A stretch of 64,000 nucleotides of DNA from Olivibacter jilunii. Lineage in GTDB: Bacteria > Bacteroidota > Bacteroidia > Sphingobacteriales > Sphingobacteriaceae. Position numbers and translations under genes: made by a program. This document shows, piece by piece, positions 35,356 to 62,328 of the stretch (within the stretch, counting starts at the first letter, position 1; each line of letters opens with the position of its first letter). The notes under the pieces were generated by a model, which had not been told where the DNA came from, ran no database searches, and was given only the letters and a program-made list of their open reading frames with translations. The DNA lies in the NCBI RefSeq assembly GCF_900607235.1, contig NZ_LR027854.1:124001-188000 (forward strand). The letters run 5' to 3'.

Positions 35356-35380
35356 CGGGTACGTAACCGAAATTATAAAC
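35356..35380 (+). promoter_or_regulatory. Distal shared operator element (site b) of the plus operon
   Basis: A near-palindrome CGGGTACGTAACCG with a central CG is followed by the AT-rich tail ATTATAAAC. Of these 25 bp, 21 are identical to the element at 61191-61215, read in the direction of its own operon. The longer frame TTCGG..CCGAA around TACGTA is also symmetric here except for one base pair. It lies 88 bp upstream of site a. Confidence 0.7.
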
Positions 35381-35443
35381 TCTTTCTGCGGGACTATATT
35401 GCTCATTAGACTATTACTTATGAATAATTGCTTGCGATATTAA

Positions 35444-35457
35444 CGTGTACGTACACA
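35444..35457. promoter_or_regulatory. Proximal shared operator (site a) of the plus operon
   Basis: CGTGTACGTACACA contains the perfect 12-bp palindrome GTGTACGTACAC (35445-35456). The same core occurs at 61107-61120 before the other operon. It ends 57 bp upstream of the SusC start. Symmetry and central CG fit a LacI-type operator; the LacI protein at 61270 is the natural candidate. Confidence 0.75.
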
Positions 35458-35514
35458 TTACAGATTTAAACCTGTAGGTGTAGGTCGAAAGTGGTGCTTA
35501 TTAAAACTTAAATT

Positions 35515-38500
35515 ATGGAGAAAAAGACAAATCACCTAACATCAAAAATCTTGGCTTTTTTGTTAATGGCCTGTTCCACCATCGGCGAACTGGCTGCCCA
35601 GACCATTCGTATGCAGGGAAAAGTAGTCGATGAAAAAAATGCACCCTTGGCCGGTGTATCCGTTCGGGACACCGTTAACCGTACGGGCGTTACTACCGAC
35701 CTTGACGGCCATTTCAGTATCATGACGAATAGTGGATCTACGTTAACCTTCTCGTTGATAGGTTACCTCAGTCAAAACCATAAAGTGAATGGAAGGCAAC
35801 ACTTAACCATTACGTTAAAAGAAGACATTTCCGCATTGGACGAAGTGGTGGTTATCGGTTACGGAACAATGAAAAAATCCTCGGTCACAGCGGCCGTGTC
35901 AAAACTGGAAAATAAAAATCTCGACCAGATTCCCTTAGCTAGACCCGAAGCCGCTCTCCAGGGTAGGCTAGCGGGCGTTAACGTATCGCAAACGCGCAGT
36001 GCTCCCGGTTCGGCGCCGCTGATACGTATCCGTGGTGGTTCAGGGTCCATTGATGCAGGCAATAGTCCTTTAGTGGTAGTCGACGGTTTCCCCGGCGGCT
36101 CGTTTGCCAATGTCAATATGAATGATGTGGAGTCGATCGAAGTACTTAAAGATGCTTCTTCTGCTGCCATTTATGGATCGAGAGGTGCGGGAGGAGTAAT
36201 TATTATTACTACGAAACGTGGAAAAACGGGAAAGCCGGTGCTTAACATCAATGCAAATGGCGGTGTTTCGACAGCCATGGGACACGATGATTGGCTGGAT
36301 AAAGATGAATATTACGCTTACGCTGTTAGATACCAAAACCGGGAATTTAATTATGTTGGTGGAGATACCAGTATTCCCGTTTGGGGAGACAATCGACGCC
36401 CTCCTCAATATCAGGTTAGCGATGCGCTAAGAAACAATGCCAATACCAATTGGCAAGATGCCCTCTTATCCCCTGCCCCTTTCCAGAACTACGATCTATC
36501 AGTAAGTGGTGGTACCGAAAACGTAAAATACTATGCATCAGCCATTATAAAAGATGTGCAAGGAACATTGAAAAACACCTGGTTTAAAAGTTACGGTGCG
36601 CGAGCAAATGTGGATGTAAAGGTAAACGATCGCGTGAATATGGGGCTGATGCTTAATCCCAATTATACACGTAATCGCTTATCCCCCCATGCGATGATCG
36701 ACTTGGTCAAATATCCGCCATTTGTGCCAGTTCAAAACCCAGATGGCTCCTATCCAAAAGCGCGTGATTATTGGGGGCTCGTCGTATCCGGCCAAACGAA
36801 TCCCATGGCATTTATGGAAGGTTCTTTCTACTTTGACGATGCCATGACCACCATAGGCGAAATGTATGCCAGTATCGATCTTGCCAAAGGGCTCAAAATA
36901 AAATCTTCCATAGGAACCACCATAAGTTATTCTTCTTCCGATCGGTTCCGAAGCACTTGGGGTTCAACCAATGGCATATCCATTGGTACAGCTAGTGACT
37001 CCAGAACCATTAACTTACTGAATGAAAACGTATTAAGTTATAATAAGGATTTTAATAATCATCACTTCGATGCGATTCTGGGAGCATCTTATCAAAGAGC
37101 AACCTCCAGATCATCGGCTATGGGGGCCGTACCCGGGTCATTCAATAATGACATTATCCATACCTTAAATAATGCGATTATCGATCCCGCCCAAACCAGG
37201 ACGTCTAAAACAGAATGGGGACTCGTTTCCTATTTCTCTCGCGTTCATTATGCTTATAAAGACAAATACCTATTATCCGCTTCCATGCGAACGGACGCTT
37301 CATCGCGTTTTGGACCAAATAATAAATGGGGATGGTTTCCTTCGGCATCCCTTGCTTGGCGAGTTTCGCAAGAGGAATTTATGAAAAGTCTCTCTGCCAT
37401 AAGTGATTTAAAGCTACGTGCAAGTTACGGTTCGACCGGAAATTTTAATATTGGCAATTTTGACTATCTAGGCCAAATCGGGAACACTTATTATTCGCCA
37501 AACAATGAGCTTTCCAATGCACAGGTACAAACTACCCTGGGTAATCCGTCACTCAGCTGGGAGAAAACGCAGGAATATGATTTCGGTATTGATTTGGGCT
37601 TATGGGCAAACCGACTTAATCTTACCGTGGATTATTACCAAAAAACCACCTCTAATTTGTTGTACAATGTATCTATTCCTGCGATTACCGGCTTTACAAG
37701 CTGGCTTACGAATATTGGAAAAATCCGCAATCAAGGGATCGAACTGGAATTGACTTCTCGAAATTTTCAAGGAGGATCTTTTTCGTGGTCGACCTCCTTC
37801 AATCTTGCTCATAATAAGAACAAGGTTATTGATCTGGGTGGGCTTTCCGAGCGCTTATATACGGATCGTTTTGGTATGAGCTGGCTGCTGCGACTGGGAG
37901 AACCCATGTTTTCTTATTATGGTTATCAAGCCATAGGTGTTTTACAAAATCAGGAAGAAGTAGCTAATACCCCCGTTCTTTCAGGATCCAAACCCGGAAA
38001 TCCGAAATATCAAGATGTCAATGATGACGGGCGCATTAACCCCGAAGACCGGGTGATATTAGGTAGTTATATGCCGAAAACTATTTTGGGTTTGGTGAAC
38101 GATTTCTCATGGAAAAATTTTGATCTCAGCATTGCCATTCAAGCTTCATTGGGTGCTAAGATCTATAACTTCGAGAACCAATATTACCAAGGCAATGTCT
38201 TAGGTGCAATGCGCCGCTCCTTAGTAGAAGGGCAGTGGTGGTCGGAACAGGAGCCGGGCGACGGAAAGATGCCTGCAGCGGCGTTAAGTCAATTGGAATT
38301 TCAGGCGAATTCCAGTATCTATATCGAAAATGCCTCTTTTCTTGCCGTTCGCAACGTAAACTTCGGTTATACTTTTTCCGAACACCTTGCGAACAAACTA
38401 AAAATGAAAAAATTTCGGCTCTACACTTCCATCAACAACCTTTTTATGATTACCGATAAAAATTTTCACGGCTATAACCCGGAAGGTTATACAGCTGGGG

Positions 38501-38592
38501 AAATCGACGGAATCAATAGTACTCCTGGTTATAATAGTGGTTCAGAACCTGTTAATCGAATTTTCACATTAGGCCTAAATGTTAATTTCTAG
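35515..38592 (+). CDS. SusC-family TonB-dependent transporter (plus operon)
   Basis: A 1025-residue outer-membrane transporter and first gene of a ten-gene operon. Signal peptide (LAFLLMACSTIGELAAQ), carboxypeptidase-D-like domain (MQGKVVDEKNAPLAGVSVRD), DEVVVIGYGTMKKSS, plug (EAALQGRLAGVNVSQTRS, VLKDASSAAIYGSRGAGGVI), then a beta-barrel ending in FTLGLNVNF. It imports a glycan or glycoside across the outer membrane with the downstream SusD. Two operator-like elements precede it. Confidence 0.95.
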   Translation: MEKKTNHLTSKILAFLLMACSTIGELAAQTIRMQGKVVDEKNAPLAGVSVRDTVNRTGVTTDLDGHFSIMTNSGSTLTFSLIGYLSQNHKVNGRQHLTITLKEDISALDEVVVIGYGTMKKSSVTAAVSKLENKNLDQIPLARPEAALQGRLAGVNVSQTRSAPGSAPLIRIRGGSGSIDAGNSPLVVVDGFPGGSFANVNMNDVESIEVLKDASSAAIYGSRGAGGVIIITTKRGKTGKPVLNINANGGVSTAMGHDDWLDKDEYYAYAVRYQNREFNYVGGDTSIPVWGDNRRPPQYQVSDALRNNANTNWQDALLSPAPFQNYDLSVSGGTENVKYYASAIIKDVQGTLKNTWFKSYGARANVDVKVNDRVNMGLMLNPNYTRNRLSPHAMIDLVKYPPFVPVQNPDGSYPKARDYWGLVVSGQTNPMAFMEGSFYFDDAMTTIGEMYASIDLAKGLKIKSSIGTTISYSSSDRFRSTWGSTNGISIGTASDSRTINLLNENVLSYNKDFNNHHFDAILGASYQRATSRSSAMGAVPGSFNNDIIHTLNNAIIDPAQTRTSKTEWGLVSYFSRVHYAYKDKYLLSASMRTDASSRFGPNNKWGWFPSASLAWRVSQEEFMKSLSAISDLKLRASYGSTGNFNIGNFDYLGQIGNTYYSPNNELSNAQVQTTLGNPSLSWEKTQEYDFGIDLGLWANRLNLTVDYYQKTTSNLLYNVSIPAITGFTSWLTNIGKIRNQGIELELTSRNFQGGSFSWSTSFNLAHNKNKVIDLGGLSERLYTDRFGMSWLLRLGEPMFSYYGYQAIGVLQNQEEVANTPVLSGSKPGNPKYQDVNDDGRINPEDRVILGSYMPKTILGLVNDFSWKNFDLSIAIQASLGAKIYNFENQYYQGNVLGAMRRSLVEGQWWSEQEPGDGKMPAAALSQLEFQANSSIYIENASFLAVRNVNFGYTFSEHLANKLKMKKFRLYTSINNLFMITDKNFHGYNPEGYTAGEIDGINSTPGYNSGSEPVNRIFTLGLNVNF

Positions 38593-38596
38593 TCAC

Positions 38597-40069
38597 ATGA
38601 AGAAGATTTTCTATACGCTATGTTCTCTTGCATTTTTGCTAAGCGGATGCCACGACAGTCTACTAAACCCTGTTCCTGAATCGGTGTTAACTGAAAAAAA
38701 CTATTACAATACCGCCAATGATATTGATCTAGCTGTATTAGGTATCTATAATAGATTACAAACAAGAAAACCAACCGATTATCAAATTTTAGAAGTACCA
38801 ACTGATAACTTATATCTATCGGCGAATACCTTAATCGAAGGGACTCCCGAAATGGATATGTTATCTGTGAATGCTACGAATCCTTTAATCGCTGCTTTTT
38901 GGGAAACAACCTATAACGGTATTTTCCGTACAAATGCAGTACTAACTAACTTGGATAAACCGACAGACTATGCTTCAGGTGAAAAAGAACAATTTGAAGG
39001 AGAAGCCAAATTTATGCGTGCGCTATTTTATTTTGATCTGGTTAGGCTATTTGGCGACGTGCCCAAAGTTACCGGCATACTGTCTGTTGAAGAAGCAGCT
39101 AGTATCGGTAGAAGTGCCGAAGACGAAATTTTCGCCTTGATTATAGAAGACCTTGAACGAGCGATTGAAATACTTCCCCTGAAAAACGCTATTGAGAATG
39201 GAAGAGCAAATAAAGCGGCGGCCATCGCTTTACTGATAAAGGTTCATGTTTACCAACAAAATTGGGATCTTGCTAAAGCGCAATTGGATCGTTTCTTTAA
39301 GGAAGCAGGCTCTTCTTTTAGCTTGGTAAGTGATTTTAGCTCCTTATGGAAGATTGCATCAGAAAACAATACGGAAGTACTATTTTCATTGAACTACATT
39401 GACGGCTCGAATGGCCATAATTTATCCACGGCATTTCTGCCGAATTCAGGCGTTATTGGCATTGCCTCGCGCGGAAATGAAATTGCATTGCCTTCCTGGA
39501 GCCTACACAAGAATTATGTGGAGGGCGATAGGCGCAAAAGCCCAACCATTACGGAATGGTGGATTCCGCCAAACACACCTAATGTACCTCCTATTTGGTA
39601 TCCCTATGTCAATAAATACGCCGTGCCACATACCCAAGGGCAATCAGGACTCGATTTACCGATTTTGCGTTATGCCGATATTCTACTCCTGCAGGCCGAA
39701 GTGCTATATCATCTTGGGCAACAACAAGAAGCATTGAATGCACTTAATAAAATACGAGAACGGGCCTTTGGAAATAGCGATCACAACTACACAACTGCAT
39801 CAATTACAAATGAGCAAGACTTTTTCCATGTGTTATTTCTGGAACGGCAGCTCGAATTTGCGTACGAAAATGAGCGATGGTTTGACCTGGTTCGATCTGG
39901 AAAATTTGAAGAAGTTATGAAACAAGAAGAGCGATTATTTAATCACGCAAACCAAACACCCGTAAAAGTTACACTTAAGCCACAAGCCTATATGAAGCGT
40001 TTTCCCATTCCTCAACGTCAGATTGATCAATCGGCAGCAGGTATTTTGGTACAAAACGAAGGATATTAA
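38597..40069 (+). CDS. SusD-family lipoprotein (plus operon)
   Basis: ATG 38597 (MKKIFYTLCSLAFLLSGC) gives a good lipoprotein signal, 4 bp after the SusC stop; an upstream start at 38579 would overlap SusC and spoil the signal. About 490 residues. RagB/SusD features: FEGEAKFMRALFYFDLVRLF, LPILRYADILLLQAEVLYHL, LERQLEFAYENERWFDLVR and the C-terminal RFPIPQRQID. It binds the ligand at the cell surface and closes over SusC. Confidence 0.94.
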   Translation: MKKIFYTLCSLAFLLSGCHDSLLNPVPESVLTEKNYYNTANDIDLAVLGIYNRLQTRKPTDYQILEVPTDNLYLSANTLIEGTPEMDMLSVNATNPLIAAFWETTYNGIFRTNAVLTNLDKPTDYASGEKEQFEGEAKFMRALFYFDLVRLFGDVPKVTGILSVEEAASIGRSAEDEIFALIIEDLERAIEILPLKNAIENGRANKAAAIALLIKVHVYQQNWDLAKAQLDRFFKEAGSSFSLVSDFSSLWKIASENNTEVLFSLNYIDGSNGHNLSTAFLPNSGVIGIASRGNEIALPSWSLHKNYVEGDRRKSPTITEWWIPPNTPNVPPIWYPYVNKYAVPHTQGQSGLDLPILRYADILLLQAEVLYHLGQQQEALNALNKIRERAFGNSDHNYTTASITNEQDFFHVLFLERQLEFAYENERWFDLVRSGKFEEVMKQEERLFNHANQTPVKVTLKPQAYMKRFPIPQRQIDQSAAGILVQNEGY

Positions 40070-40085
40070 TTATAGACATAATAAA

Positions 40086-41339
40086 ATGCCAAATCAAGAA
40101 ATAATCTCCAATTCTACATCTTACCACAAGCCACGTACCCAATATTTCAAGCATTGGTTTGCCTCTTTAGGTCCCGGAGTTATTACAGCAGCGCTTGTAT
40201 TCGGTCCGAGCAAAATGACAATTACCTCTAAACTAGGTGCAGATTATGGTTTCTCTTTATTATGGATTGTGGTTTTAGCCATTTTTTTTATGGCGATCTT
40301 CACTCATATGGGTGCGCGGATCGGCATCGCTGCACAGGAATCGCTATTGGGTGTGATCCGTAAAAAATGGGGTAAAATTTCCGCTATAATTATCGGTTTA
40401 GGGCTATTTTTAGTAGCGACGTCCTTCCAAGCCGGAAATGCCATCGGCGTAGGGATTTCCATTGCTGAAATCAATAATAGTTCTATTCCTATATGGATTA
40501 TACTTTTTAACATCATTGGAATCGTGCTGTTATTTTTTCGCGGTTTTTATAAAATATTGGAAAGGTTGATGATTCTATTGATTGCGTTAATGCTCTTTTC
40601 GTTTATCGTCACTTTGTTCTTTGTTAAGCCTTCTGTTGAGGACATTATTACGGGATTCGTTCCTTCCCTCCCCGCGGGATCAATCGGTCTCGTTATCGCA
40701 TTTTTTGCTTCGTGCTTCTCTATTGTTGGTGCATTTTACCAATCTTATTTAGTGCAGGAACGTAAAAAAAACACATTGGCTACGGACGGCCATCGAAATG
40801 GAAGTATGACAGGCATTATTATGCTGGGACTAATGAGCGCTATGGTCATGATCTGTGCAGCGGCCGTTTTGCATGCGGAAAAATTACCCGTGAATAATGC
40901 TTCGGACATGGCGCGGGCACTTGAGCCGTTATTTGGAAGATACGCATCCAGCTTATTTTTGATGGGACTTTTTGGCGCTTCCTTCTCCTCCTTAATTGGA
41001 AACGCGACGCTTGGTGGCACTCTGATAGCAGACGCATTTGGCTTTGATTATCAGTTGGATGCCAAAGCAGTACGTTTTTTTATCGCCTTGGTTATGCTTT
41101 TTGGAAGTGCCATTGCCATTGTTTTTGGGAAGCTTCCTTTGGAGCTTATTGTATTTGCTCAAAGTGTAACCATATTCCTCGTGCCCTTCATTGGCATCGC
41201 TATGTTTGTTATATCGAATGATACCCACATTATGGGGACGCTTGTCAATACAAAACCTACCAATTTTTTCGCCTCTATAGGTTTGATTGTCTTAATTATG
41301 CTGGCTATCAGCAATGCCAATGAATTATTCTTAAAATAA
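40086..41339 (+). CDS. NRAMP-fold transporter lacking the canonical metal-binding motifs
   Basis: ATG 40086 (MPNQEIISN) is chosen over TTG 40023, which overlaps SusD. About 417 residues with eleven or so membrane segments and clear NRAMP-type alignment (SLGPGVITAALVF, LGADYGFSLLW). However, where NRAMP metal transporters have DPGN in helix 1 this protein has GPSK (residues 40-43). In helix 6, where they have MPH, it has VGAFYQSYL (214-222). The Asp, Asn and Met ligands for Mn/Fe are therefore missing. Placed between SusCD and sugar-acid-type enzymes, it more likely carries an organic substrate across the inner membrane (inference). It sits 16 bp after SusD and 1 bp before the epimerase gene. 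Confidence 0.85.
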   Translation: MPNQEIISNSTSYHKPRTQYFKHWFASLGPGVITAALVFGPSKMTITSKLGADYGFSLLWIVVLAIFFMAIFTHMGARIGIAAQESLLGVIRKKWGKISAIIIGLGLFLVATSFQAGNAIGVGISIAEINNSSIPIWIILFNIIGIVLLFFRGFYKILERLMILLIALMLFSFIVTLFFVKPSVEDIITGFVPSLPAGSIGLVIAFFASCFSIVGAFYQSYLVQERKKNTLATDGHRNGSMTGIIMLGLMSAMVMICAAAVLHAEKLPVNNASDMARALEPLFGRYASSLFLMGLFGASFSSLIGNATLGGTLIADAFGFDYQLDAKAVRFFIALVMLFGSAIAIVFGKLPLELIVFAQSVTIFLVPFIGIAMFVISNDTHIMGTLVNTKPTNFFASIGLIVLIMLAISNANELFLK

Positions 41340-41340
41340 A

Positions 41341-42363
41341 ATGATGATGCAGAATTTAGAATTATTAGAACAAAAGCTATACGAGCCTTCAGCTTCCTTA
41401 ATCGCAGATATGTCTCAAATAGATGGTGACATTATGATCTTGGGTGCTGGTGGAAAAATGGGACCAAGTATGGCAAAAGCGGCGCATGTAGCCTCCAAAC
41501 TTGCCGGTAAAGACCGACGAGTGATTGCAGTATCCCGATTTTCAGATGGGGAAAGCAGGGATTTGCTTCAAGCAAGCGGCGTCGAAACCATTACGGCGGA
41601 CCTCTTAAACGAAGATCACTTACAGTCACTTCCGGACGTTGAGCATATTATTTACCTCGTAGGACAGAAATTCGGAACGACGGGCAAAGAACCGTTTACC
41701 TGGATCATGAACACCTATTTACCAGGTAGAATAGCCGAGCGCTTCAAAAATTCGCGTATGGTTATATTCTCTACCGGAAATGTCTACCCCTTATCATTGG
41801 TAACTGCAGGAGGATGCTCAGAAGAGCAAAGTCCGGAACCTATTGGGGAATATGGACAATCGTGCCTCGGACGGGAGCGGATCTTCCAATTCTTTGCTGA
41901 GAAATATCAAATTCCCACCTTGATTTATCGCCTCAATTATGCTATTGATTTACGATACGGTGTTCTACTGGAAATTGCCAAAGCAGTGATGGAAGACAAA
42001 CCTATTGATCTTCGTATGGGGAATGTAAATGTCATCTGGCAAGGAGATGCCAATGAGATTGCGTTGAGATCTTTGCTCCACTGTACCGTACCCGCTAAAA
42101 TTTTAAACGTCACGGGGCCGGAAACTGTTTCTATTCAATGGTTAGCGAACCAATTCGGTAATTTATTAAACAAAACTCCCCGTTTTATTAACGAAACTCA
42201 GCCAACTGCCCTTCTTAGCAATGCATCAGCGGCCCATCAGTTATTCGGTTATCCGAAAGTAACCTTAAGGCAAATGATCGAGATCACCGCTAATTGGTTA
42301 AATCATGGCGGAAAAACCATCGAAAAGCCGACGCATTTTCAAGAAAGACAAGGCCGATTTTAA
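41341..42363 (+). CDS. Atypical NAD-dependent epimerase/dehydratase (extended SDR fold)
   Basis: A 340-residue extended-SDR protein; three consecutive ATG codons open it. The Rossmann motif is ILGAGGKMG (about 34-41). The SDR Ser/Thr is in FSTGNVYP, but where the active site should read Tyr-x-x-x-Lys the sequence is YGQSC (Tyr171, Cys175), so the catalytic lysine is replaced. Later motifs (RLNYAIDLRYGVL, VNVIWQGDANEIA, NVTGPETVS) resemble UDP-sugar epimerases. The substrate may be a free or acidic sugar rather than a nucleotide sugar. No signal peptide; cytoplasmic, next to the NRAMP-like transporter and DHDPS-family aldolase. Confidence 0.8.
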   Translation: MMMQNLELLEQKLYEPSASLIADMSQIDGDIMILGAGGKMGPSMAKAAHVASKLAGKDRRVIAVSRFSDGESRDLLQASGVETITADLLNEDHLQSLPDVEHIIYLVGQKFGTTGKEPFTWIMNTYLPGRIAERFKNSRMVIFSTGNVYPLSLVTAGGCSEEQSPEPIGEYGQSCLGRERIFQFFAEKYQIPTLIYRLNYAIDLRYGVLLEIAKAVMEDKPIDLRMGNVNVIWQGDANEIALRSLLHCTVPAKILNVTGPETVSIQWLANQFGNLLNKTPRFINETQPTALLSNASAAHQLFGYPKVTLRQMIEITANWLNHGGKTIEKPTHFQERQGRF

Positions 42364-42382
42364 GACCAAACAACATTATCAC

Positions 42383-43462
42383 ATGAGCTTTCAATATTTA
42401 TCAGCTGAGAAGAAATCGCTTTTACAAACGGGTACCGTTATTCCTGCGCATCCACTAGCGCTGAACGCCGATAGGACTCTAAATGAATTCTATCAACGTC
42501 AATTGACGCGCTATTATATAGCATCCGGCGCAGGTGGAATAGCCATAGGCGTCCATAGCACGCAATTTGCAATACGATCACCCCATGTCAATTTATATGA
42601 AAAAGTGCTAGCTATTGCTGCGGACGAAATTGAGCGTAATCGTCCCCCTTATCCTTTTTTAAAAATTGCCGGGATCTGTGGCCGCACCGAACAGGCCATT
42701 AAAGAAGCGCAGTTAGCCAATAAATATGGTTACGATTTAGGCTTATTGAGTCTTGGCGGACTAAACGAATGGAGTGAAGATCAAATCCTGTTGCATGCAA
42801 AAGAGGTGGCGGAAATAATTCCTATTATCGGCTTTTATTTGCAACCAAGCGTGGGTGGCCGCATATTTAGCTATGATTTTTGGGCAAAATTTGCCGAAAT
42901 AAAGCATCTCGAGGCCATTAAGGTTGCCCCATTCAATCGTTATCAAACCCTGGATGTCGTGCGCGCGCTATGTCATTCAAGCCGTAAAGATGACATTGCG
43001 TTATACACGGGTAACGACGATAATATTGTCGCCGATTTATTAACCACCTACGCTTTTCCCATCAATGGCAAGCTAGTTACCAAAGAATTTGTTGGCGGAT
43101 TGCTGGGACACTGGGCCGTTTTTACAAGCAAAGCGGTGGCTCTACTGGAAGAAATAAAAACGTGTAAACGAACCAACTTTACCGGTGTTCAGGCATTACT
43201 TACCAAAGGTGTGCAAGTAACAGACATGAATGCGGTAATATTCGATTCAGCCCATCAATTTAAAGGTTGTATCCCGGGAATACACGAAGTACTACGAAGA
43301 CAGGGCCTTTTACCCGGTCGTTGGTGCTTGGATCCTGAAGAAGACCTTTCAGCCGGACAAATGGAAGAAATTGATCGCATTTTTAATGCCTATCCGGATT
43401 TAGTGGATCACACATTTCTCCAAGATTTCTTAATTAAAGATTTGTCAAATGGAAAAAGATAG
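42383..43462 (+). CDS. DHDPS/N-acetylneuraminate lyase-family aldolase or dehydratase
   Basis: ATG 42383 (MSFQYLSAEK) lies 19 bp after the epimerase stop; an earlier in-frame ATG at 42305 would overlap that gene by about 60 bp and adds a basic tail unlike the family. About 359 residues, longer than the usual 300. The TIM-barrel class I aldolase residues are present: Tyr152 in GFYLQPSVGG and the probable Schiff-base Lys180 in LEAIKVAPFNRY. SGAGGIAIGVHS occupies the place of the usual GTTGE loop. Members cleave or dehydrate 2-keto-3-deoxy sugar acids. The next gene starts 14 bp before this stop codon, so translation is coupled. Likely the carbon-cleaving step of the operon (inference). Confidence 0.82.
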   Translation: MSFQYLSAEKKSLLQTGTVIPAHPLALNADRTLNEFYQRQLTRYYIASGAGGIAIGVHSTQFAIRSPHVNLYEKVLAIAADEIERNRPPYPFLKIAGICGRTEQAIKEAQLANKYGYDLGLLSLGGLNEWSEDQILLHAKEVAEIIPIIGFYLQPSVGGRIFSYDFWAKFAEIKHLEAIKVAPFNRYQTLDVVRALCHSSRKDDIALYTGNDDNIVADLLTTYAFPINGKLVTKEFVGGLLGHWAVFTSKAVALLEEIKTCKRTNFTGVQALLTKGVQVTDMNAVIFDSAHQFKGCIPGIHEVLRRQGLLPGRWCLDPEEDLSAGQMEEIDRIFNAYPDLVDHTFLQDFLIKDLSNGKR

Positions 43463-44738: not shown

Positions 44739-44790
44739 ACGCACGCTTTATGTATACATCTCATTAAACGTTCAAATAACAACTTGACAT

Positions 44791-46170: not shown

Positions 46171-46196
46171 GTTTATACTCATCAACCATCGCGATC

Positions 46197-46970: not shown

Positions 46971-46986
46971 ATTATGAACAGATAAG

Positions 46987-48489: not shown

Positions 48490-48490
48490 C

Positions 48491-50206: not shown

Positions 50207-50217
50207 TCGCCTTTTTG
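50189..50217. terminator. Bidirectional terminator shared by the two convergent operons
   Basis: CAAAAAGGC (50189-50197) and GCCTTTTTG (50209-50217) form a perfect 9-bp stem with an 11-nt loop that contains the GMC stop codon. A-tract and T-tract flank it symmetrically, so it can act in both directions. The NagA stop codon is 14 bp away on the other strand. Confidence 0.8.
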
Positions 50218-50231
50218 TTAAACAAGATAGA

Positions 50232-51422: not shown

Positions 51423-51453
51423 ATAAAATTATGCCGATACACCGGCCTTTAAG

Positions 51454-52761: not shown

Positions 52762-52817
52762 TGTTTGTCTTTATAATCTTTCTGCAATAGGCAATATATC
52801 TGCCGGTCCTTAAATAT

Positions 52818-54176: not shown

Positions 54177-54202
54177 AATTTCGCTCTCCGTTATTGATTA
54201 AC

Positions 54203-55717
54203 TCAAAATGTATAATTTGGGTTTTGTTCTAATGCTTTATTGCGATCCCATGCTTCTCTTGGAATCGGGAATACAATGGGTCGGGTATGTAACCAAGGTT
54301 TCTGATCAACATTTAAGTCGTTAATATTCGGTCTTTCCTTCCTTATAAAGTCGATGAAACGACCTCTTCGATTGAGATCTGAAAATCCACCCGTCGGTTC
54401 CCATATAAATTCCACCCGTCTTTCTTTAAAGATTGCATCTAGGGTTTCTTCCTTTCCTAGACCAGCCGAAAGCTGGTCCAACCCGGCTCGTTCGCGGACT
54501 TTATTAATTTGTACTATGGCATCCGACGTTCTTCCAATTTCGTTGAGAGCCTCGGCATAATTCAATAAAGCTTCCGAAAAACGCATGATCGGTGCGTTAA
54601 TCCCCGAATTGTTGATAGTAGGTTTTTCCCAATACTTCGTTACAATATATCCCGTTTTCGACCAACCTGTCGGCACTTCATTTGGCATCACAAAAGCAGG
54701 CATATTTTGATGAGGTTCTCCCGGACCGATAATTACGTCCCAATACCGTTTATCTTTTATCTTGCCTTGATCATCCTTTTCAAATGTATTTACCCAGTGT
54801 TGCTGTGGTACAAAATTGCTCCAGGCAGCTCCTCCGGTAAATTCAGAAGGCGCACCGCGGGGTGCTGTTCTCTTCACTAAATTGTTCCCTTCACTATCTT
54901 GCGAAGGTCTGAACTGCGTAGAAAATAGGATCTCTTCATTATTTTCGTTTTCCTCGCTGAATACATCTCTAAACTTGGGTACCAAGCCGTGAACACCTAA
55001 CTGTATCAGCTCTTCCCCATAGCCAACCACATCTTCATACTTTTCTTGCCACAAAGCGGCTTTAATAAGCAAAGCCAGGGCCGATCCTGTTGTTGCTTTT
55101 CCAACATTATTACCTGTCCAGGTCTTCGGCAAAGCGGTCTTTGCCGCCAAAAGATCCGATTCAATTAATGCCCAAACCTCTTCGGCACTTGCACGAGATA
55201 CTTCCAAATTAGAAGAAGCATCTAGGATTTCAGTAATTAGCGGTACACCTCCCCAATAAGTAACCAGCCGATAATAAAATAAAGCTCGTAAAAACTTTGC
55301 TTGCCCCAAGATAAGTTGTTTGGACTCTTCAGCGATATTTTCCATAGCGCTAACCTTATTAATTACTATATTTGCTCTACTTACACCAAGGTAAGCTCCC
55401 ATATACATATCTCTTAGAATTGTATTGGTTGCGGGAAAAGCCAAGGTGTGTAGTTCGATTCGGTTAGCACTTCCATCCATCTCGTACATATCACCTGCAA
55501 TTGCCCATTCAACATCCGCTGCATCTCTTACATTGCTAAAGGTTTCCTCTCGCTGTAACATACCATATGCGCCATTTAAACCGGCCTGTGCATCCGATTC
55601 GTTAAGGTAAAAGTTTTCCTCTGTTAATGTATCTTTTGGTGATAGGGATAGAAATTTATCGCCACAAGACATCAAAATGAAAAAGGTTAAAAAACCGAGT
55701 ATATAGGTTGTTTTCAT
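54203..55717 (-). CDS. SusD-family lipoprotein (minus operon)
   Basis: ATG 55717 (MKTTYILGFLTFFILMSC) gives a proper lipoprotein signal; a start at 55753 would add 12 charged residues and overlap the SusC stop. About 504 residues. RagB/SusD features: LGQAKFLRALFYYRLVTYWG, IMRFSEALLNYAEALNEIG, FKERRVEFIWEPTGGFSDLN and PIVFPIPREAWD. Partner of the SusC just upstream. Confidence 0.94.
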   Translation of the reverse strand: MKTTYILGFLTFFILMSCGDKFLSLSPKDTLTEENFYLNESDAQAGLNGAYGMLQREETFSNVRDAADVEWAIAGDMYEMDGSANRIELHTLAFPATNTILRDMYMGAYLGVSRANIVINKVSAMENIAEESKQLILGQAKFLRALFYYRLVTYWGGVPLITEILDASSNLEVSRASAEEVWALIESDLLAAKTALPKTWTGNNVGKATTGSALALLIKAALWQEKYEDVVGYGEELIQLGVHGLVPKFRDVFSEENENNEEILFSTQFRPSQDSEGNNLVKRTAPRGAPSEFTGGAAWSNFVPQQHWVNTFEKDDQGKIKDKRYWDVIIGPGEPHQNMPAFVMPNEVPTGWSKTGYIVTKYWEKPTINNSGINAPIMRFSEALLNYAEALNEIGRTSDAIVQINKVRERAGLDQLSAGLGKEETLDAIFKERRVEFIWEPTGGFSDLNRRGRFIDFIRKERPNINDLNVDQKPWLHTRPIVFPIPREAWDRNKALEQNPNYTF

Positions 55718-55752
55718 TTTTTTATTTTTAGTATGTAACTCCATGTCATTCA

Positions 55753-58700
55753 TTAAAGTCCGACTCTTAGTCCTAACATATACGTTCTTGGTATAGGATA
55801 TACCCCGTCGTCAACACCCGAAGCCAATGGACTCGTACTACCGATTTCCGGGTCGAAGCCGGAATATTGTGTAAAGGTTAGTAGGTTTTGAGCGCTCACA
55901 TAAACGCGAATCCGTTTGATCAAACCCTCATCGGCGAATAAACCGCTAGGCAAGCTGTAACCCAAGGTCACATTGCGTAGGCGAAGAAAATCTCCTTTTT
56001 CAATGTAAAAAGAAGAAACATTGGCATAATTTCCGTTGGCATCGGTATAAGTCAATCTTGGAACCGTATTACCGCCATTCTCGGGTGTCCATCGATTTAG
56101 AACCTCCGCCGATGCATTAATGACACCACTCCCTCCAAAGTATTTAATCGGGTAGGTCGAAAATTTGTTTACATGAAAAATCTCATTCCCTGCAACTCCC
56201 TGTAACAAAATATTCAAATCGAATCCTTTATAAGAAAAATCCATATTTGCACCATATGTTAACGACGGCCAAGGACTTCCAAGCTTGACACGATCCGCAT
56301 CAGACAATACACCATCCCCATTTACATCTCTAAATCTAAAATCGCCTGCCTGTGCATTCGGCTGCAGTGCTTTATTCACTTCCTCATCCTGTTGATAGAT
56401 TCCATCTACTATATATCCTCTAAAATATCCGATAGGCTCGCCAACTTCGGTGTATGATGAGCTCATACTCGTAAAACCGACTGTTGGTCCAGTGATAGGA
56501 CGACCCGTCCCCAATGATAATACTTCATTTTTCAGTGTTGCCAAATTGAAGCTCACATCGTATTTAAATTCGCCGCTGTTACCATTATATCCCAGTAGTA
56601 ATTCCAATCCCTTATTCCTAACCTTTCCACCATTTACGGATGGTGCGCTCTCAAAACCTGCCTCCATCGACACCGGTAAACTTACCAACATATCCTTCGT
56701 ATCTTTAATATAATACTCTGCGGTCAGATACGCGTGATCATTTAAAAAGGAGGCATCAAGTCCGATATTAATCTGCTCACTCGTTTCCCATTTTAGGTTT
56801 TGATTTCCCGGGCGGATCATACTTGCGCCAATCGCTAAGCCTTGATCCGGACCTAGCACATAATTATCGCCCACTCTTCCCAATCCGATTGTACTCGCAT
56901 AGCTAAAGGCGCCAATAGCGTCGTTTCCTAACTGTCCCCAACTGGCCCTTAATTTCAATGAGTTGATCGCTTTGATCTGCTTAAAGAACGTTTCTTCCGA
57001 AATATTCCATCCTGCCGAGAAAGAAGGAAAGTTTCCCCATTTATGATTCGGACCAAAATTAGAAGAGCCATCCCGGCGAATACTTGCCGAGAAGAGATAT
57101 TTATTTCGGTAAGTATAATTAATGCGGCCCAGGTAAGAGGCCAAGGAATATACGGATCCCGTGCCATTGGCTCTGCGTTCTAATTCGGCACTACCATTGA
57201 TAATCTGAAGATTCTCGTTCTGGAAATCTCTAGCCGTTACACCGATCCAATCGTTCGTGTTTTTTTGTGCCGTTTGACCAATAACCGCTGAAATATTATG
57301 CTCATTAAAGGCCTTATTAAATGACAAGGTATTTTCTATCAACCAATTCAATCCCTGCGTATACGTCTCTCCCAAAATAGCTTGTAAGTTGCGATAATGA
57401 CCTCTTTCAACTTTAGGTTCCCAAGTGGTGCTTCTATTATTATTGGCGTCAATGCCAATGCTCGTCCGCCATTTCAGGCCATTGACGATTTCATATTCTC
57501 CATAGGCATTTCCATACATCCGCATATTTTTCAGAAAGTTTTCCATCGACTCTGCGCGGAGAATGGGGTTGTCACCTTGGGTAGAATAATAGGCTGAAGA
57601 ACCGTTAACGACGTCTCTTAAACCCAGTGTGGGGTAAAATTGTTGTGCAAGGTTAAAGATACCCAGCCGAAAATCTTCATTGCGCTGCCCTTTACTATGG
57701 GTATAAGCAAAAGCCAAGGTTCCTCCAAATTTTAGTTTATTGCTCACATTGACATCCACATTGGCTCTACCCGTATATCGCTTACTCCATGTTTCGATTA
57801 AAGTCCCTTGTTGATCCCGATAGCCTAAAGAAAGAGCCGCCTGCACTTTTTGAGATCCGCCACTTACATTCACATCGTAGTTCTGTAAAGGAGCAGTGCG
57901 GAACACCTCTTCAATCCAATCGGTTCCCTTACCGAACGAAGCAGGATTAGCCCATTCGGGATTAGGGGTCATATTCGAGTTACTATATAATTCGTTAGCC
58001 AAGGTGGCAAATTCTTCCGCATTTAAAAACCGTGGCTTCTTCCACAGTTGCTGCAAACCACCATATGCATTTAGTTCAGCTGTCGTTACCCCTTCCTTTC
58101 CTCTTTTGGTCGTAATTAATATTACTCCATTTGCCGCTCTAGCGCCATATATAGAAGCAGCCGCCGCGTCTTTTAAAATCTCAATCGATTCGATATCGTT
58201 TGGATTTACGATTGACATTCCATCAACTCGATCGGTACTTCCACCGACGGTCATACCGCCACCGCCAACTGGGAATCCATCAATTACGTATAAAGGTTCA
58301 TTCCCACCAGTCGTACCAACACCACGAATGCGGACGGAAGTTGCACCACCCGGGGCACCCGTTGTTTGACTAATCGTAACCCCGGGGACTTTGCCTTGGA
58401 TAGCGCCTGTAAAAGAAGCAGATGCCACTTTCTGCAATTCAGTAGCCTTAACAGAAGATACGGAACCGGTAAGTTCTTTCCGCGATTGCGTACCATAACC
58501 AATCACTACGATCTCCTCTAAGCTGGTAAAGTCCTCTTCCAAACGAACTTGTAAAGATCGCCGTCCCAGCAAACTAACTTCTTGTGGCTTATATCCTACA
58601 AAAGTAAATAGGAGTGTCTCCTTCCCTGTCAAACGCCTGAGTTGGAATTTGCCGTCTAAATCGGTTGAAGTACCTGCCACCCCACCTTTAACCTTGACAC

Positions 58701-58866
58701 TGACCCCGGGTAGCGGAGATCCATCGGAAGCGGTTACGTTACCGACTACATCAATAAAATCTTGCCTATTCAACCTGTTGGTTTGCTGAGTACGTGCCAT
58801 TACTTCTTCTCCAAGAAGTAACATCCATACTACGCTAAGAAAGAGAGCGTAATTTTTTCTTCTCAT
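55753..58866 (-). CDS. SusC-family TonB-dependent transporter (minus operon)
   Basis: A 1037-residue outer-membrane transporter. N-terminal signal, carboxypeptidase-D-like domain (VVGNVTASDGSPLPGVSVKV), EEIVVIGYGTQSRKEL, plug (FTGAIQGKVPGVTISQTTGA, ILKDAAAASIYGARAANGVI), then a beta-barrel ending MLGLRVGL. It forms the import pair with the SusD gene 35 bp downstream. It is distinct in sequence from the SusC at 35515, so the regulon contains two different import pairs. Confidence 0.95.
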   Translation of the reverse strand: MRRKNYALFLSVVWMLLLGEEVMARTQQTNRLNRQDFIDVVGNVTASDGSPLPGVSVKVKGGVAGTSTDLDGKFQLRRLTGKETLLFTFVGYKPQEVSLLGRRSLQVRLEEDFTSLEEIVVIGYGTQSRKELTGSVSSVKATELQKVASASFTGAIQGKVPGVTISQTTGAPGGATSVRIRGVGTTGGNEPLYVIDGFPVGGGGMTVGGSTDRVDGMSIVNPNDIESIEILKDAAAASIYGARAANGVILITTKRGKEGVTTAELNAYGGLQQLWKKPRFLNAEEFATLANELYSNSNMTPNPEWANPASFGKGTDWIEEVFRTAPLQNYDVNVSGGSQKVQAALSLGYRDQQGTLIETWSKRYTGRANVDVNVSNKLKFGGTLAFAYTHSKGQRNEDFRLGIFNLAQQFYPTLGLRDVVNGSSAYYSTQGDNPILRAESMENFLKNMRMYGNAYGEYEIVNGLKWRTSIGIDANNNRSTTWEPKVERGHYRNLQAILGETYTQGLNWLIENTLSFNKAFNEHNISAVIGQTAQKNTNDWIGVTARDFQNENLQIINGSAELERRANGTGSVYSLASYLGRINYTYRNKYLFSASIRRDGSSNFGPNHKWGNFPSFSAGWNISEETFFKQIKAINSLKLRASWGQLGNDAIGAFSYASTIGLGRVGDNYVLGPDQGLAIGASMIRPGNQNLKWETSEQINIGLDASFLNDHAYLTAEYYIKDTKDMLVSLPVSMEAGFESAPSVNGGKVRNKGLELLLGYNGNSGEFKYDVSFNLATLKNEVLSLGTGRPITGPTVGFTSMSSSYTEVGEPIGYFRGYIVDGIYQQDEEVNKALQPNAQAGDFRFRDVNGDGVLSDADRVKLGSPWPSLTYGANMDFSYKGFDLNILLQGVAGNEIFHVNKFSTYPIKYFGGSGVINASAEVLNRWTPENGGNTVPRLTYTDANGNYANVSSFYIEKGDFLRLRNVTLGYSLPSGLFADEGLIKRIRVYVSAQNLLTFTQYSGFDPEIGSTSPLASGVDDGVYPIPRTYMLGLRVGL

Positions 58867-58916
58867 AAGTTTTAAGGTTAAGTTTCTGAGTTTGTGGTTT
58901 ACATATAAGATTTTAT

Positions 58917-60077
58917 TTATTTCAAGAAATATTCAAAGAACAAGTAAGCAATTTCATTTGCCTCGTTATTCGGCTCATGTGTAGGCCTATTGTGCATAGC
59001 GACACGATTATCATAGCCAAACCTGTGGTTTAGTGCTATGATCCGATTTAATGTGTGCCATCGGTCCGGCGGATCCTCGGCACCTCCTAGCACTAAGAAA
59101 GGTCTCGGTACCATAAGTGCATGCAACTCATGCAGATTATATCCATTCTTAATAAGCCAGGGATATAATCCAAAAGCCGGATTTTCCTTACTTATCAAGC
59201 CGCGTTTTCGCCATGGTTTTGGATGATAACCCAGGTACCACGGCTCCCAATAATTGATCGATTCACGATCATGCTGAAATAAAATTCCCGGATCTGACCA
59301 TACGGCGCAAGCAAAACGATCGAACAAGCAAGAAGCGAACATGGCCCATTTACCACCAAAGGAATGTCCCATAATACCTATCTTATCGGATGAAACCTCC
59401 GGAAAGTTTGCCAATGCATAATAGGCATTAGCGGCTGCGTAAGCCAACATGGATAAAGGTTGTACCTGCGCATGCTTTATATTCGGATAAAACAGGGAAA
59501 ATTCTTTTCTTTCTGAAGTGGCTGAAGTTCCAATAGATAACGTTATAAAGCCTCTTTTTGTTAACTGCAGAGCGAAATCACGATTTGGTTTTCCTTTACC
59601 TATAGCCGTTTCCGGTTCATAAAATACGGTGATAACTGCCGGCTTCTTTCCCTTGGTTTTTGGCACCAATAAATAGCCGGTTGTTTCCTCCGTTGGCGTC
59701 CAGTAAAATTTCACTTCACACTCAAAGTAGCTTTCTTTTTCATTGGTATCGATAATTGACAGTTGTTGCTTCTTGAGTAAGGCCGGCCAATTTCCCATCA
59801 GACTATCCCAGCGCTTTTTTATTTCCAGTTGGCGCTTTGAGAAGTCTTGCACGGTGGATACACTATCGCCATTGTAAAAGATGTTGAGTGGTCGAAGTGA
59901 ATCTTGTTTATCCTTAAACTCTTGTGGTGGGCTAAAATAGGGAGCAATTTTTTTCCATATCTTTTCTTTTTGGCTATTAAACAATGTTGTTTCCTGCGCA
60001 TTTAACGAAAATGCGAAGCCTAGATATAGTCCCACCAGTATCCATCTCTTATAGTCACGTTTTACCATTGCCTTCAT
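58917..60077 (-). CDS. Secreted alpha/beta-hydrolase esterase
   Basis: The start is ambiguous: ATG 60095, 60077 or 60068; 60077 places the start just after the preceding stop and keeps a signal peptide (RWILVGLYLGFAFSLNAQ). About 386 residues. The alpha/beta-hydrolase triad is probably Ser in GHSFGG, Asp in GGAEDPPD and His in NRPTHEPN. The fold resembles dienelactone-hydrolase/acetylxylan-esterase-type carbohydrate esterases; the CE15 GCSRxGKG motif is absent. It probably removes an ester from the imported glycan in the periplasm. It lies between the Gfo/Idh gene and SusC in the minus operon. Confidence 0.8.
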   Translation of the reverse strand: MKAMVKRDYKRWILVGLYLGFAFSLNAQETTLFNSQKEKIWKKIAPYFSPPQEFKDKQDSLRPLNIFYNGDSVSTVQDFSKRQLEIKKRWDSLMGNWPALLKKQQLSIIDTNEKESYFECEVKFYWTPTEETTGYLLVPKTKGKKPAVITVFYEPETAIGKGKPNRDFALQLTKRGFITLSIGTSATSERKEFSLFYPNIKHAQVQPLSMLAYAAANAYYALANFPEVSSDKIGIMGHSFGGKWAMFASCLFDRFACAVWSDPGILFQHDRESINYWEPWYLGYHPKPWRKRGLISKENPAFGLYPWLIKNGYNLHELHALMVPRPFLVLGGAEDPPDRWHTLNRIIALNHRFGYDNRVAMHNRPTHEPNNEANEIAYLFFEYFLK

Positions 60078-60078
60078 T

Positions 60079-61089
60079 TTATTGCATAATCTCATGCAGA
60101 AAGACGGCGGCCCCTGCCCTGCTTTTACTTAGATCAGCAGCTTCCATAAAGGCCAATATTTCCAGTGTCTCTTCTTCTTGAACAGGGGGCCGTTTTGTTT
60201 CAAAGAACTGCACGATTTCTTCCAATAAGGGTTGATAACCTTTGTATGGGCCAATTAACTGGATTCCGGTTGTGCCAAAAGCAGTCCCCCCAAAATCACG
60301 TTTTCCCTTTCGGATCCCTCTGAAAGTTCCCAAACGTCCATCGCTCCAAGTACCTACCACGATGTCAGTGTCCGGTGTAGAAGTTCTGGTAACTGATTTA
60401 CATCCCCTTCCCATCACGGCATAAAGCGTTTCCACGCCATGTATGCCATACCAAAACAGGTCAGGATGTGTGGCTTCCAAGGTAGCAGGGCTATAGGTAT
60501 CTGCGCCCGTGACATCGCCAATCGACTTCACTTCCGTTATTTCTTTAATATGCTCGGCATAACGCAAAGAAGAAGCGGAAAATACCGGAATTCGCTTTTT
60601 CCTCGCGTATTCGAATATTTTCTTTGCATCGCGATAGGAAGCGGCCATGGGTTTATCAATAAAAAGAGTTTTTCCGGCATCGATGACGGGAATAGCTTGC
60701 TCGAGATGCAGGCGACCATCATTAGTTTCCAATAATACGTGGTCAACCTTCTTCAATAAATCAGCAATAGAATCTACAATTTCTATTCCTAATGTGCTGA
60801 TCTCTTGCGTATAACCGGCTATTCTTTTGGCGCTACTTTCAATATCTCTACTACCATAAGGATAGGCAGCAATAATTCGATAGCCCTTTAATGCTGCATC
60901 CGGTGTAGCCGCATTTAAGGCTTTGGCAAAGGCAATACTATGCGATGTATCTAAACCAATGATTCCTACCCGTTTTCCATTCACATTTTTGAAACTTGCT
61001 TTGCCAGTCAGCGGAAGATTGAGCAGGCTGATTGACAAGCTCGAAATAGCTGCCTTTTTGATAAAGTCTCTTCTTGGAATACTATTCAT
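60079..61089 (-). CDS. Tat-type Gfo/Idh/MocA-related protein, first gene of the minus operon
   Basis: A 336-residue protein with a Tat-like signal (PRRDFIKKAAISSLSISLL). It is Gfo/Idh-like, but its dinucleotide motif is unusual: GIIGLDTSHS instead of GxGxxG, and DKPMAASYRDAK replaces the common EKP motif. LFWYGIHGVETLYAVMGRG carries a conserved histidine in the second domain. Cofactor binding may differ from the other two Gfo/Idh proteins of the regulon. It is preceded by the two shared operator elements and by the LacI gene. Confidence 0.82.
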   Translation of the reverse strand: MNSIPRRDFIKKAAISSLSISLLNLPLTGKASFKNVNGKRVGIIGLDTSHSIAFAKALNAATPDAALKGYRIIAAYPYGSRDIESSAKRIAGYTQEISTLGIEIVDSIADLLKKVDHVLLETNDGRLHLEQAIPVIDAGKTLFIDKPMAASYRDAKKIFEYARKKRIPVFSASSLRYAEHIKEITEVKSIGDVTGADTYSPATLEATHPDLFWYGIHGVETLYAVMGRGCKSVTRTSTPDTDIVVGTWSDGRLGTFRGIRKGKRDFGGTAFGTTGIQLIGPYKGYQPLLEEIVQFFETKRPPVQEEETLEILAFMEAADLSKSRAGAAVFLHEIMQ

Positions 61090-61106
61090 AATTTATTTTT
61101 ATACAA

Positions 61107-61120
61107 CGTGTACGTACACG
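61107..61120. promoter_or_regulatory. Proximal shared operator (site a) of the minus operon
   Basis: CGTGTACGTACACG is a perfect 14-bp palindrome with a central CG, ending 17 bp upstream of the Gfo/Idh start codon. Thirteen of its 14 bp recur at 35444-35457 before the plus operon. Binding so close to the start is compatible with repression. Confidence 0.8.
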
Positions 61121-61190
61121 AATACTTTTAATGATAAAATAAGCTGTCTTATAACTTCTATTCTATTCCCAATAAATATACTCAGCTAAT

Positions 61191-61215
61191 GTTTATAATA
61201 ACGGTTACGTTACCG
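61191..61215 (-). promoter_or_regulatory. Distal shared operator element (site b) of the minus operon
   Basis: On the minus strand CGGTAACGTAACCG is followed by the tail ATTATAAAC, with 21 of 25 bp identical to 35356-35380. It lies 95 bp upstream of site a (88 bp in the other operon), again on the far side from the gene. The core is a near-palindrome. Confidence 0.7.
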
Positions 61216-61269
61216 CAATTTACGAAAAGATATTTCAAATGCAAATTGTTTTTAAAAATTTCAAGGTTA

Positions 61270-62328
61270 TTAATTATGGTAGAAGCGATAATTCTCTTTG
61301 GTTACAATATCAATGGGCATAAATTGATCTTCAATTCGCCGTTCGTGCAGATCTGTATAGCGATGGAGTGTCATAATACCTCTATAACCTTGTTCCTCAG
61401 GCTTCTGACAGATTAAAAATTGAATGATACCTAATTCGAGGTATTTAATATTTTCTTTTAAGAAATCATATCCGATGAGCACCTTAACAATGCTCTTCCG
61501 TTCGAAATAATGGGCAACAGCAGAGACTCTGGAGTTTGTTACAAAAACGCCTTCTATCCCCTTCTGCTCGCTAAAAACTTTATCTAAAGCATCTTCTATG
61601 GAAGAAGAATCTGTTTGTTTAATATCCAGCTTTAAGATTTGAAGCTTTTTGTTATTTTTTTCAAAATAAGCGCGGAATCCCTCCTCTTTCCGAAGGAGGT
61701 GGTGGTATTGATCGAGTTCCTTTGATACGTTTATCAATAATACTTTGCCCGTTTTGACGGCAAAATCCATCAATTGCGCTGCCTGATAGCCACTACAAAA
61801 GAGATGCGGCCCGATATAACAGACACTGTTCTGCCCGGGTACATCCGAATTGATAAAAACATAGGGAATTTTGCGTTCATTGCAGCGTGTGGTTAATTGT
61901 ATTGCTTCTTCGACAAATGATGGTGCCACTAATAGCCCGTCGACAGCTTCCTCGAGAATTAAATCGACCTGCTTTAGGAACGATTGTTTATCATTAAGGT
62001 CAAAAAAAAATTTCAATACCACAATGCCGTATTGTTTTAATGCTTTGGCGGCTCTATCAATACCGGATAGCGGAGCCTCCCAGAAATCCGTTTCTGTAGA
62101 ACTAGGAATTAACACGGCATATTTTGAAACTTTCTTTGATGCTAATCGACTTGCAATAATATTTGGCTTATAATCGAACTCTTTAATGATATCGTTTATC
62201 CGCTTCTTGGTTGCTTCCGATACACCCTTGCGATTGTGCAAAACACGATCAACAGTAGCGATTGAAACATTAGCCAAACGTGCAATCTGCTTGACACCAA
62301 ATTCTTTATTTTCTAACGATTTGCTCAT
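61270..62328 (-). CDS. LacI-family regulator, probable regulator of both sugar operons
   Basis: A 352-residue regulator. Helix-turn-helix at about residues 13-35 (VKQIARLANVSIATVDRVLH) and hinge region ending NIIASRLASKK. The effector domain (YAVLIPSSTETDFWEAPLSG, VDGLLVAPSFVEEAI, VFINSDVPGQNSVCYIG) is of the ribose-binding-protein type, suggesting a free sugar ligand. It lies immediately upstream of the minus operon, separated by the gap containing both operator elements. The gene itself has no such element upstream, so autoregulation is not evident. Confidence 0.92.
   Translation of the reverse strand: MSKSLENKEFGVKQIARLANVSIATVDRVLHNRKGVSEATKKRINDIIKEFDYKPNIIASRLASKKVSKYAVLIPSSTETDFWEAPLSGIDRAAKALKQYGIVVLKFFFDLNDKQSFLKQVDLILEEAVDGLLVAPSFVEEAIQLTTRCNERKIPYVFINSDVPGQNSVCYIGPHLFCSGYQAAQLMDFAVKTGKVLLINVSKELDQYHHLLRKEEGFRAYFEKNNKKLQILKLDIKQTDSSSIEDALDKVFSEQKGIEGVFVTNSRVSAVAHYFERKSIVKVLIGYDFLKENIKYLELGIIQFLICQKPEEQGYRGIMTLHRYTDLHERRIEDQFMPIDIVTKENYRFYHN

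Follow-up and report, generated by a model that had tools for sequence, protein, structure and literature searches.

The window, a stretch of 64,000 nucleotides of the Olivibacter jilunii genome (contig NZ_LR027854.1, positions 124,001 to 188,000), holds two convergent operons and, beside the second, the gene of a LacI-family regulator, P0001. We consider it very probable, from comparison of sequences, that this single regulator acts on both operons through one operator type, with one site at each predicted promoter start and another in each leader. Specifically, an exact match search of the window places site a, GTGTACGTACAC, at 35445-35456 and 61108-61119, and site b reads CGGGTACGTAACCG at 35356-35369 before operon 1 and CGGTAACGTAACCG at 61215-61202, on the minus strand, before operon 2. 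An earlier note, made from the letters alone, had described two elements in the same order upstream of the SusC gene at 35515 and the Gfo/Idh gene at 61089, and the coordinates bear this out. In both promoters site b lies farther from the genes, at start-to-start distances from site a of 88 bp (operon 1) and 95 bp (operon 2), and the 25-mers that start at the two b sites and run into an AT-rich tail are identical at 21 of 25 positions, all as the note had stated. A central ACGT is present in all four sites, in line with the CG-centred symmetry already remarked on there and with the even palindrome with central CG looked for in LacI-family operators. The pattern GKKWACGTWMMC, which spans the a and b forms, occurs five times in the window against 0.10 expected, and none of 100 shuffles reaches five. 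The sites are listed below with their position weight matrix (PWM) scores.

35356-35369, plus strand: operator b of operon 1, CGGGTACGTAACCG, overlapping the -7 element and the predicted start; PWM 25.8, the window's second best
35445-35456, plus strand: operator a of operon 1, GTGTACGTACAC, in the 5' leader at about +84 to +95, 58 nt upstream of the SusC ATG; PWM 22.6
61108-61119, minus strand: operator a of operon 2, GTGTACGTACAC, in the 5' leader at about +92 to +103, 18 nt upstream of the Gfo/Idh ATG; PWM 27.0
61202-61215, minus strand: operator b of operon 2, CGGTAACGTAACCG, at the predicted start; PWM 19.1; identical letters in the same place in the same-genus genomes G052 and G063
58732-58743, minus strand: candidate fifth operator, GGTAACGTAACC, inside the second SusC gene (codons GNVT, nt 124-135 of the gene); PWM 19.6

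Linkage of the operator to P0001

Pattern scans of the genome (6,704,054 bases) were compared with reversed-pattern controls. Exact site a has two copies genome-wide, both before these operons, and its reversed control has none. Among the 13 matches to the wider pattern, four are intergenic, and these are precisely the four reported sites; the eight matches outside the window all fall within mechanically called open reading frames (ORFs), and the fifth match of the window, absent from the earlier note, lies within the second SusC gene. A genome scan for both elements, which the earlier note had proposed as a check, thus finds no wide occurrence before unrelated genes.

The regulator gene had been placed at 61270-62328 from the letters alone, and searches for its DNA-binding and sensor domains agree:

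61270-62328, minus strand: LacI-family regulator P0001, 352 aa, with a LacI helix-turn-helix (HTH) and a Peripla_BP_4 sensor; recognition helix VSIATVDR, hinge ASRLASKK

The N-terminal HTH matches PF00356 with an E-value of 2.2e-16 and 59.8 bits (cut-off 27), the C-terminal periplasmic-binding-type sensor matches PF13407 with an E-value of 9.7e-37, and the nearest solved chain is 3gbv, itself of the LacI family (E 1.5e-37). Of the 13 LacI HTHs encoded in the genome, every one of which was read, that of P0001 alone has TVDR.

Across 399 genomes of the family, exact site a is found in 72 (own included) and in at least two copies in 25, compared with 33 and one, respectively, for the reversed control. 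Two sets of relatives were assembled from opposite ends of the proposed link. The site-first set comprises 15 genomes chosen by site a before the lacI positions were known (14 multi-copy and one single-copy; 10 other multi-copy genomes were left out). A P0001-type LacI lies in the stretch chosen by site a in 11 of these 15, and in 14 after extension, which added G045, G077 and G263. The LacI-first set comprises 23 of the 27 non-own LacI matches at 50% identity or above, one of which, the G003 middle piece, came from stretches chosen by site a. In 0.88 Mb, these 23 neighbourhoods contain 70 pattern sites against 4 reversed-control sites; every one has at least one site, and in 20 the distance from a site to the midpoint of lacI is at most 3 kb. 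The four loci left out of the set (G045, G052, G077 and the main locus of G063) likewise carry sites.

In line with both sets, exact site a is present in 13 of the 26 genomes with a close LacI (E<1e-100) among G000-G090 and in 4 of the 65 without one (Fisher 6.5e-6); for 33 genomes of the list the LacI status comes from a separate search, which gave no match in any. Among five LacIs at 40-46% identity, a site is missing from four. All neighbourhoods together hold 145 sites, 130 of them intergenic, against 7 controls in 1.72 Mb, a set selected in part by site a. Because the operator accompanies the P0001-type LacI across the family, the identification of site a as the operator of P0001 is well supported at the sequence level. 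The suggestion that the two operons form one local LacI regulon gains support both from this linkage and from the placement of the sites in the genome.

Several findings weigh against this reading. The wider pattern is not enriched in the genome (13 matches versus 31 for the reversed pattern), nor is it in G052 (16 versus 27) or G063 (20 versus 34), and site a alone, with two mismatches allowed, reaches two copies in 15 of 100 window shuffles, which is not significant. G092 has three exact a sites and no P0001-type LacI within the stretches fetched, G039 and G042 each have an exact a site far from their own lacI, and exact site a is absent from G063, the closest relative. Two of the site-less distant LacIs, G016:C1:2.99 Mb and G064:C1:2.27 Mb (41-44% identity), have near-identical recognition helices, and no site was seen within some 20 kb of either. 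Additionally, no site scoring 6 or more by PWM lies before 62328, so the gene of P0001 shows no sign of an operator before it. More than three quarters of local LacI regulators are autoregulated (PMC4052901), and in the other neighbourhoods the first gene downstream of a site is of the lacI type in 5 of 98 cases. Since the pattern is not enriched genome-wide, only position and linkage carry weight. That the sites reflect chance similarity, or relatedness without function, would fit the shuffles and the rarity of the wider pattern relative to its reversed control, but it is contradicted by the genome-wide placement and the cross-genome counts, and we regard its probability as next to negligible.

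A probable single operator type at the predicted promoter start and in the leader

Most probably site b is a variant form of the operator seen at site a, because hybrids of the two occur in close relatives and all four sites stand far above background in a matrix scan trained outside the genus. Specifically, the hybrid GTGTACGTAACC, half a and half b, takes the place of site a before Gfo/Idh in G063 (LacI 86% identical) and the place of site b before SusC in G052 (LacI 77% identical). The matrix was trained on 112 intergenic sites from outside the genus and symmetrised; its five best hits in the window start, in falling order of score, at 61108, 35357, 35445, 58732 and 61203, with the next at 12.6 and the maximum in the reversed window at 9.3. 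The operator consensus is C-G[T/G][G/T]TAC|GTA[C/A][A/C]C-G, and its letters beyond the search pattern, the leading C and the trailing G, are conserved in 87% of the half-sites used for training. The candidate site at 58732-58743 has this outer C/G flank as well, and its letters are kept in G063 (Olivibacter domesticus) with flanking synonymous positions changed. In relatives, the outer-flank letters do not separate sites inside genes (25 of 30) from those outside (230 of 260), perhaps because ORF starts were called too early, and this comparison is not used as evidence.

A model in which P0001 reads a while a second LacI-type or other factor reads b was set aside as the leading idea once the hybrid sites appeared. 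It would account for the degenerate form of b (GGTTAC half-sites) next to the perfect palindrome of a, and it can draw on the 13 LacI HTHs encoded in the genome and on the extra TTATA-type tail that begins 4 nt past b in five of six same-genus promoters. However, besides the hybrids, the b-type half-sites GGTTAC, GGTAAC and GGGTAC appear in single sites of other LacI-chosen neighbourhoods, and the 12 remaining LacI HTHs of the genome all lack TVDR, which leaves two regulators improbable. The earlier note had held that the paired operators could loop or bind two regulators; the latter part is disfavoured, as a and b interconvert in relatives, and the former keeps the share weighed below. As separate observations, ATTATAAAC lies closely 3' of site b in both promoters of the window (35372-35380 and 61191-61199), and a TTATA-type tail begins 8-10 nt past the site in G003, G077, G028_21119 and G045_24446.

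Bacteroidetes promoters carry TTTG near -33 and TAnnTTTG at -7 (PMC7366714); in F. johnsoniae the -7 letters are T-12, A-11, T-8, T-7, T-6 and G-5, and the -33 element is much less evident (PMC6847099). Numbering predicted starts and site positions by the latter -7 scheme, we predict the following promoters:

35326-35357, plus strand: predicted promoter of operon 1; -33 TTTG at 35326-35329, 20-nt spacer, -7 element TATCTTCG at 35350-35357, predicted +1 at about 35362
61215-61245, minus strand: predicted promoter of operon 2; -33 TTTG at 61245-61242, 19-nt spacer, -7 element TAAATTGC at 61222-61215, predicted +1 at about 61210

In operon 1, site b runs from about -5 to +7, sharing its first G with the -7 element; in operon 2 it starts one base later. 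Site b is therefore predicted to lie on the promoter start itself and site a about 90 bp downstream, in the predicted transcribed leader. The picture of two operators per promoter stands in this refined form: the distal site is no upstream auxiliary operator but the one at the predicted start. Across the neighbourhoods, the TA of TTTG-N18-21-TAnnTT lies 7 or 8 nt before the site at 24 of 125 oriented intergenic sites, which are interrelated and include our own four; the adjacent 13-nt bin holds 10, the other bins 0-4 and the antisense strand 0. Sites with a full core promoter at -7/-8 are thus a minority, a count that weighs against the proposed reading. A role of site a as the operator of a second promoter was considered and rejected, as a full core promoter is absent at -7/-8 of both a sites here.

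Some LacI-family members activate. P0001 might, on that precedent, be an activator or a dual regulator, as the sign of control is not readable from sequence; but a protein on site b, over the predicted start and meeting the -7 element, should exclude polymerase, and we hold activation to be still less probable than two regulators.

The distance between sites is itself conserved. Among 39 successive spacings below 260 bp, 14 fall at 82-101 bp and eight at 19 or 21 bp. In the LacI tree, one group of 12 rows (support 97/58; inner 10-row group 100/99) has the 82-101 bp pair in 10, G032 and G086 being the exceptions; within the stretches compared, none of the 31 other rows has it. On the other hand, the 14 spacings show no supported helical phase (R 0.29, Rayleigh p ~0.32, from related rows), and one G063 promoter has a spacing of 136 bp and G086 one of 19 bp. 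Moreover, the alignment of P0001 to 3gbv reaches the last residue of P0001 (chain residue 296 of 304), so that an extra C-terminal tetramer helix is not apparent, as judged from this one sequence alignment. A lac-type DNA loop between the two operators, required for repression, would explain why two operators per promoter are kept in this group; the lack of a supported phase, the outlying spacings and the lack of an apparent tetramer helix speak against it, and we rate it as unlikely, with a share well above that of the other alternatives. Because neither a phase in the spacing nor the tetramer helix is apparent, we favour occlusion at b, with site a serving either as a roadblock or as one end of a loosely geared loop. 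According to a single-molecule study (PMC5477534), bound E. coli LacI stops polymerase for minutes. In a different LacI subgroup, five neighbourhoods (G365, G272, G388, G212 and G269; loci L062, L066, L069, L070 and L072) have two sites 21 bp apart, a distance near the 22 bp that PMC4052901 interprets as due to cooperative dimers.

Taken together, we propose that one LacI-family repressor, encoded at 61270-62328, would control both operons via one operator type. A dimer on site b would sit on the start, overlapping or touching the -7 element, so that RNA polymerase and repressor would be mutually exclusive. On site a, which lies 88-95 bp farther downstream, within the leader, another dimer may block polymerase that has escaped or steady the first dimer by a flexible loop. 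A sugar ligand, probably an N-acetylglucosamine (GlcNAc)-type metabolite such as GlcNAc-6-phosphate, would free both sites and the 17 genes would rise together. The operator identity, its link to P0001, the promoter register and the conserved pairing are the parts supported by comparison; repression as the sign, the dimers, the ligand and the choice of roadblock or loop are those that we infer.

Gene content, same-genus genomes and the probable signal

The two operons contain the following genes:

35515-50206, plus strand: operon 1, 10 genes: SusC, SusD, Nramp-like transporter, epimerase-like SDR, DHDPS-like, enolase-superfamily (MR_MLE)-like, Gfo/Idh, GDSL esterase, GSDH with cytochrome c, GMC oxidoreductase
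50232-61089, minus strand: operon 2, 7 genes, 5' to 3': Gfo/Idh, alpha/beta hydrolase, SusC, SusD, Gfo/Idh, NagP-like MFS transporter, NagA-like deacetylase

Counting ORFs gives 10 + 7 = 17 genes, in agreement with the earlier estimate of about 17 in two convergent operons; intergenic gaps do not exceed 56 bp, and the convergent ends are 25 bp apart. A simple scan of 50000-50450 finds no terminator between them, and no structured RNA leader matches Rfam at the gathering threshold anywhere in the window. By sequence, the closest solved structures of the two larger Gfo/Idh proteins are the dehydrogenases 8tdf/8tdh and that of the GMC protein is fructose dehydrogenase; a PDB sequence search with the DHDPS-like and MR_MLE-like proteins gives no hits up to E 0.001. 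The MR_MLE-like gene is tandem-duplicated in Olivibacter domesticus (G063:C12 near 521000; L110 and L170), with copies 66% and 47% identical to that of the window.

In the same-genus genomes G063 and G052, most of both operons, the LacI and the paired sites at each promoter are kept, with pair spacings of 136 and 91 bp in G063, 87 and 96 bp in G052 and 98 bp at a paralogous G063 locus. G052 lacks the second SusCD pair of operon 2 and the GDSL gene. Eight of the 20 pattern matches of G063 are intergenic, six at two LacI loci and two with GGGAACGTTCCC, apparently another motif. In G052, nine of 16 are intergenic: the four promoter sites and five outside both operons, among them one upstream of a further Gfo/Idh gene of 60079 type and another ahead of a SusC-like gene. 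These extra sites weigh against the proposed reading, and in G052 the regulon seems to reach beyond two operons. In a further SusC-containing locus of G052 (C1:2548000-2566000, L229), the first gene is a paralogue of the 60079 Gfo/Idh gene, and a lone intergenic operator lies about 119 bp before it.

As for the signal, the NagA-like deacetylase of operon 2 scores above the NCBIfam nagA cut-off and the NagP-like transporter below that for NagP. The window operons carry these nagA- and nagP-like genes and no nagB; a second nagA lies at C2:712875, and the three PF01182 proteins of the genome are encoded elsewhere. Among 43 LacI neighbourhoods (own included), a NagA relative is present in 29, a NagP relative in 26 and either in 31, a linkage of the kind looked for in a GlcNAc (Nag) regulator. 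The G365 neighbourhood additionally encodes two GH20 proteins, a nagB-like protein (below the NCBIfam cut-off) and an HGSNAT-like acetyltransferase. The linkage of nagA, nagP, nagB-like and GH20 genes in relatives suggests a GlcNAc-type ligand; against it, both NagA and NagP are unseen in 12 of the 43.

Other genes flank the regulon. An HSP20 gene (34718-35158) abuts operon 1, while its G052 homologue (74%) lies about 11 kb before the operon 1 SusC, with another SusC/SusD pair between; this difference in position suggests that the operon 1 boundary has been rearranged. The locus at 20587-34109 encodes two alpha-L-fucosidase-family proteins, GH95, GH2 and a SusC-like protein and has no operator of the P0001 type, and a hybrid two-component regulator is encoded beyond it at 9676-13860.

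Comparison with known systems

In E. coli lac, LacI acts with O1 and auxiliary operators, one of them upstream near -82. The present promoters share with it an operator over the start and a second about 90 bp away; they differ in that the second operator lies in the leader and in that the tetramer helix is not apparent in P0001. With the local LacI regulons of PMC4052901, P0001 shares the HTH and periplasmic-binding-type sensor, the even CG-centred palindrome and a position beside sugar operons. About 20% of operons in that set have more than one site, with inter-site peaks at 13, 22 and 32 bp, as against 82-101 bp in one group here; Bacteroides makes up only 1-2% of it.

NagI of Stenotrophomonas maltophilia is a LacI-type GlcNAc repressor released by GlcNAc-6P and, like P0001, is linked to nagP and nagA (PMC13055268). 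It belongs to another phylum, and the operons here lack nagB and have oxidoreductases, two SusCD pairs and Gfo/Idh genes in addition; the likeness is one of protein type and gene content. Bacteroidota sugar regulators have been predicted from palindromic motifs before, namely KdgR, UxaR, UxmR and UxuR (LacI) and NanR (ROK) of Bacteroides (PMC3878776), and the part of the regulator table covered in that source has no LacI regulator of GlcNAc. UxuR2 of Algoriphagus, a LacI protein said to control two loci, resembles P0001 by description (PMC5507952). No published account of the P0001 regulon was found in the literature searched, in which subscription journals are sparsely covered, and a text search for the exact operator strings GTGTACGTACAC and GGTTACGTAACC returned unrelated papers only.

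The regulon is real with high probability; it is solid and conserved, fairly ordinary and of a known kind. A broader reading, which we offer tentatively and hold to be possible but doubtful, is that a group of Bacteroidota LacI proteins uses a two-checkpoint promoter, in which a dimer at the start and -7 element would be joined by an unphased leader dimer acting as a roadblock, possibly with a third site in SusC, on an ancestral GlcNAc regulator redirected in Olivibacter to an oxidative amino-sugar or glycoside pathway.

From these comparisons an operator code can be read, at the level of sequence, for a LacI that about one in four of the family genomes checked carries (26 of 91, E<1e-100). 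As the operator is tied to the Bacteroidetes promoter register, regulons and transcription starts may become predictable in many species. Enzymes without an assigned pathway (DHDPS-like, MR_MLE-like, Gfo/Idh and GMC) would be placed under one signal. The group-specific pair of operators, at start and in leader, is the part of most experimental worth: conserved yet unphased at 82-101 bp, it would make roadblock versus looping directly testable within one group.

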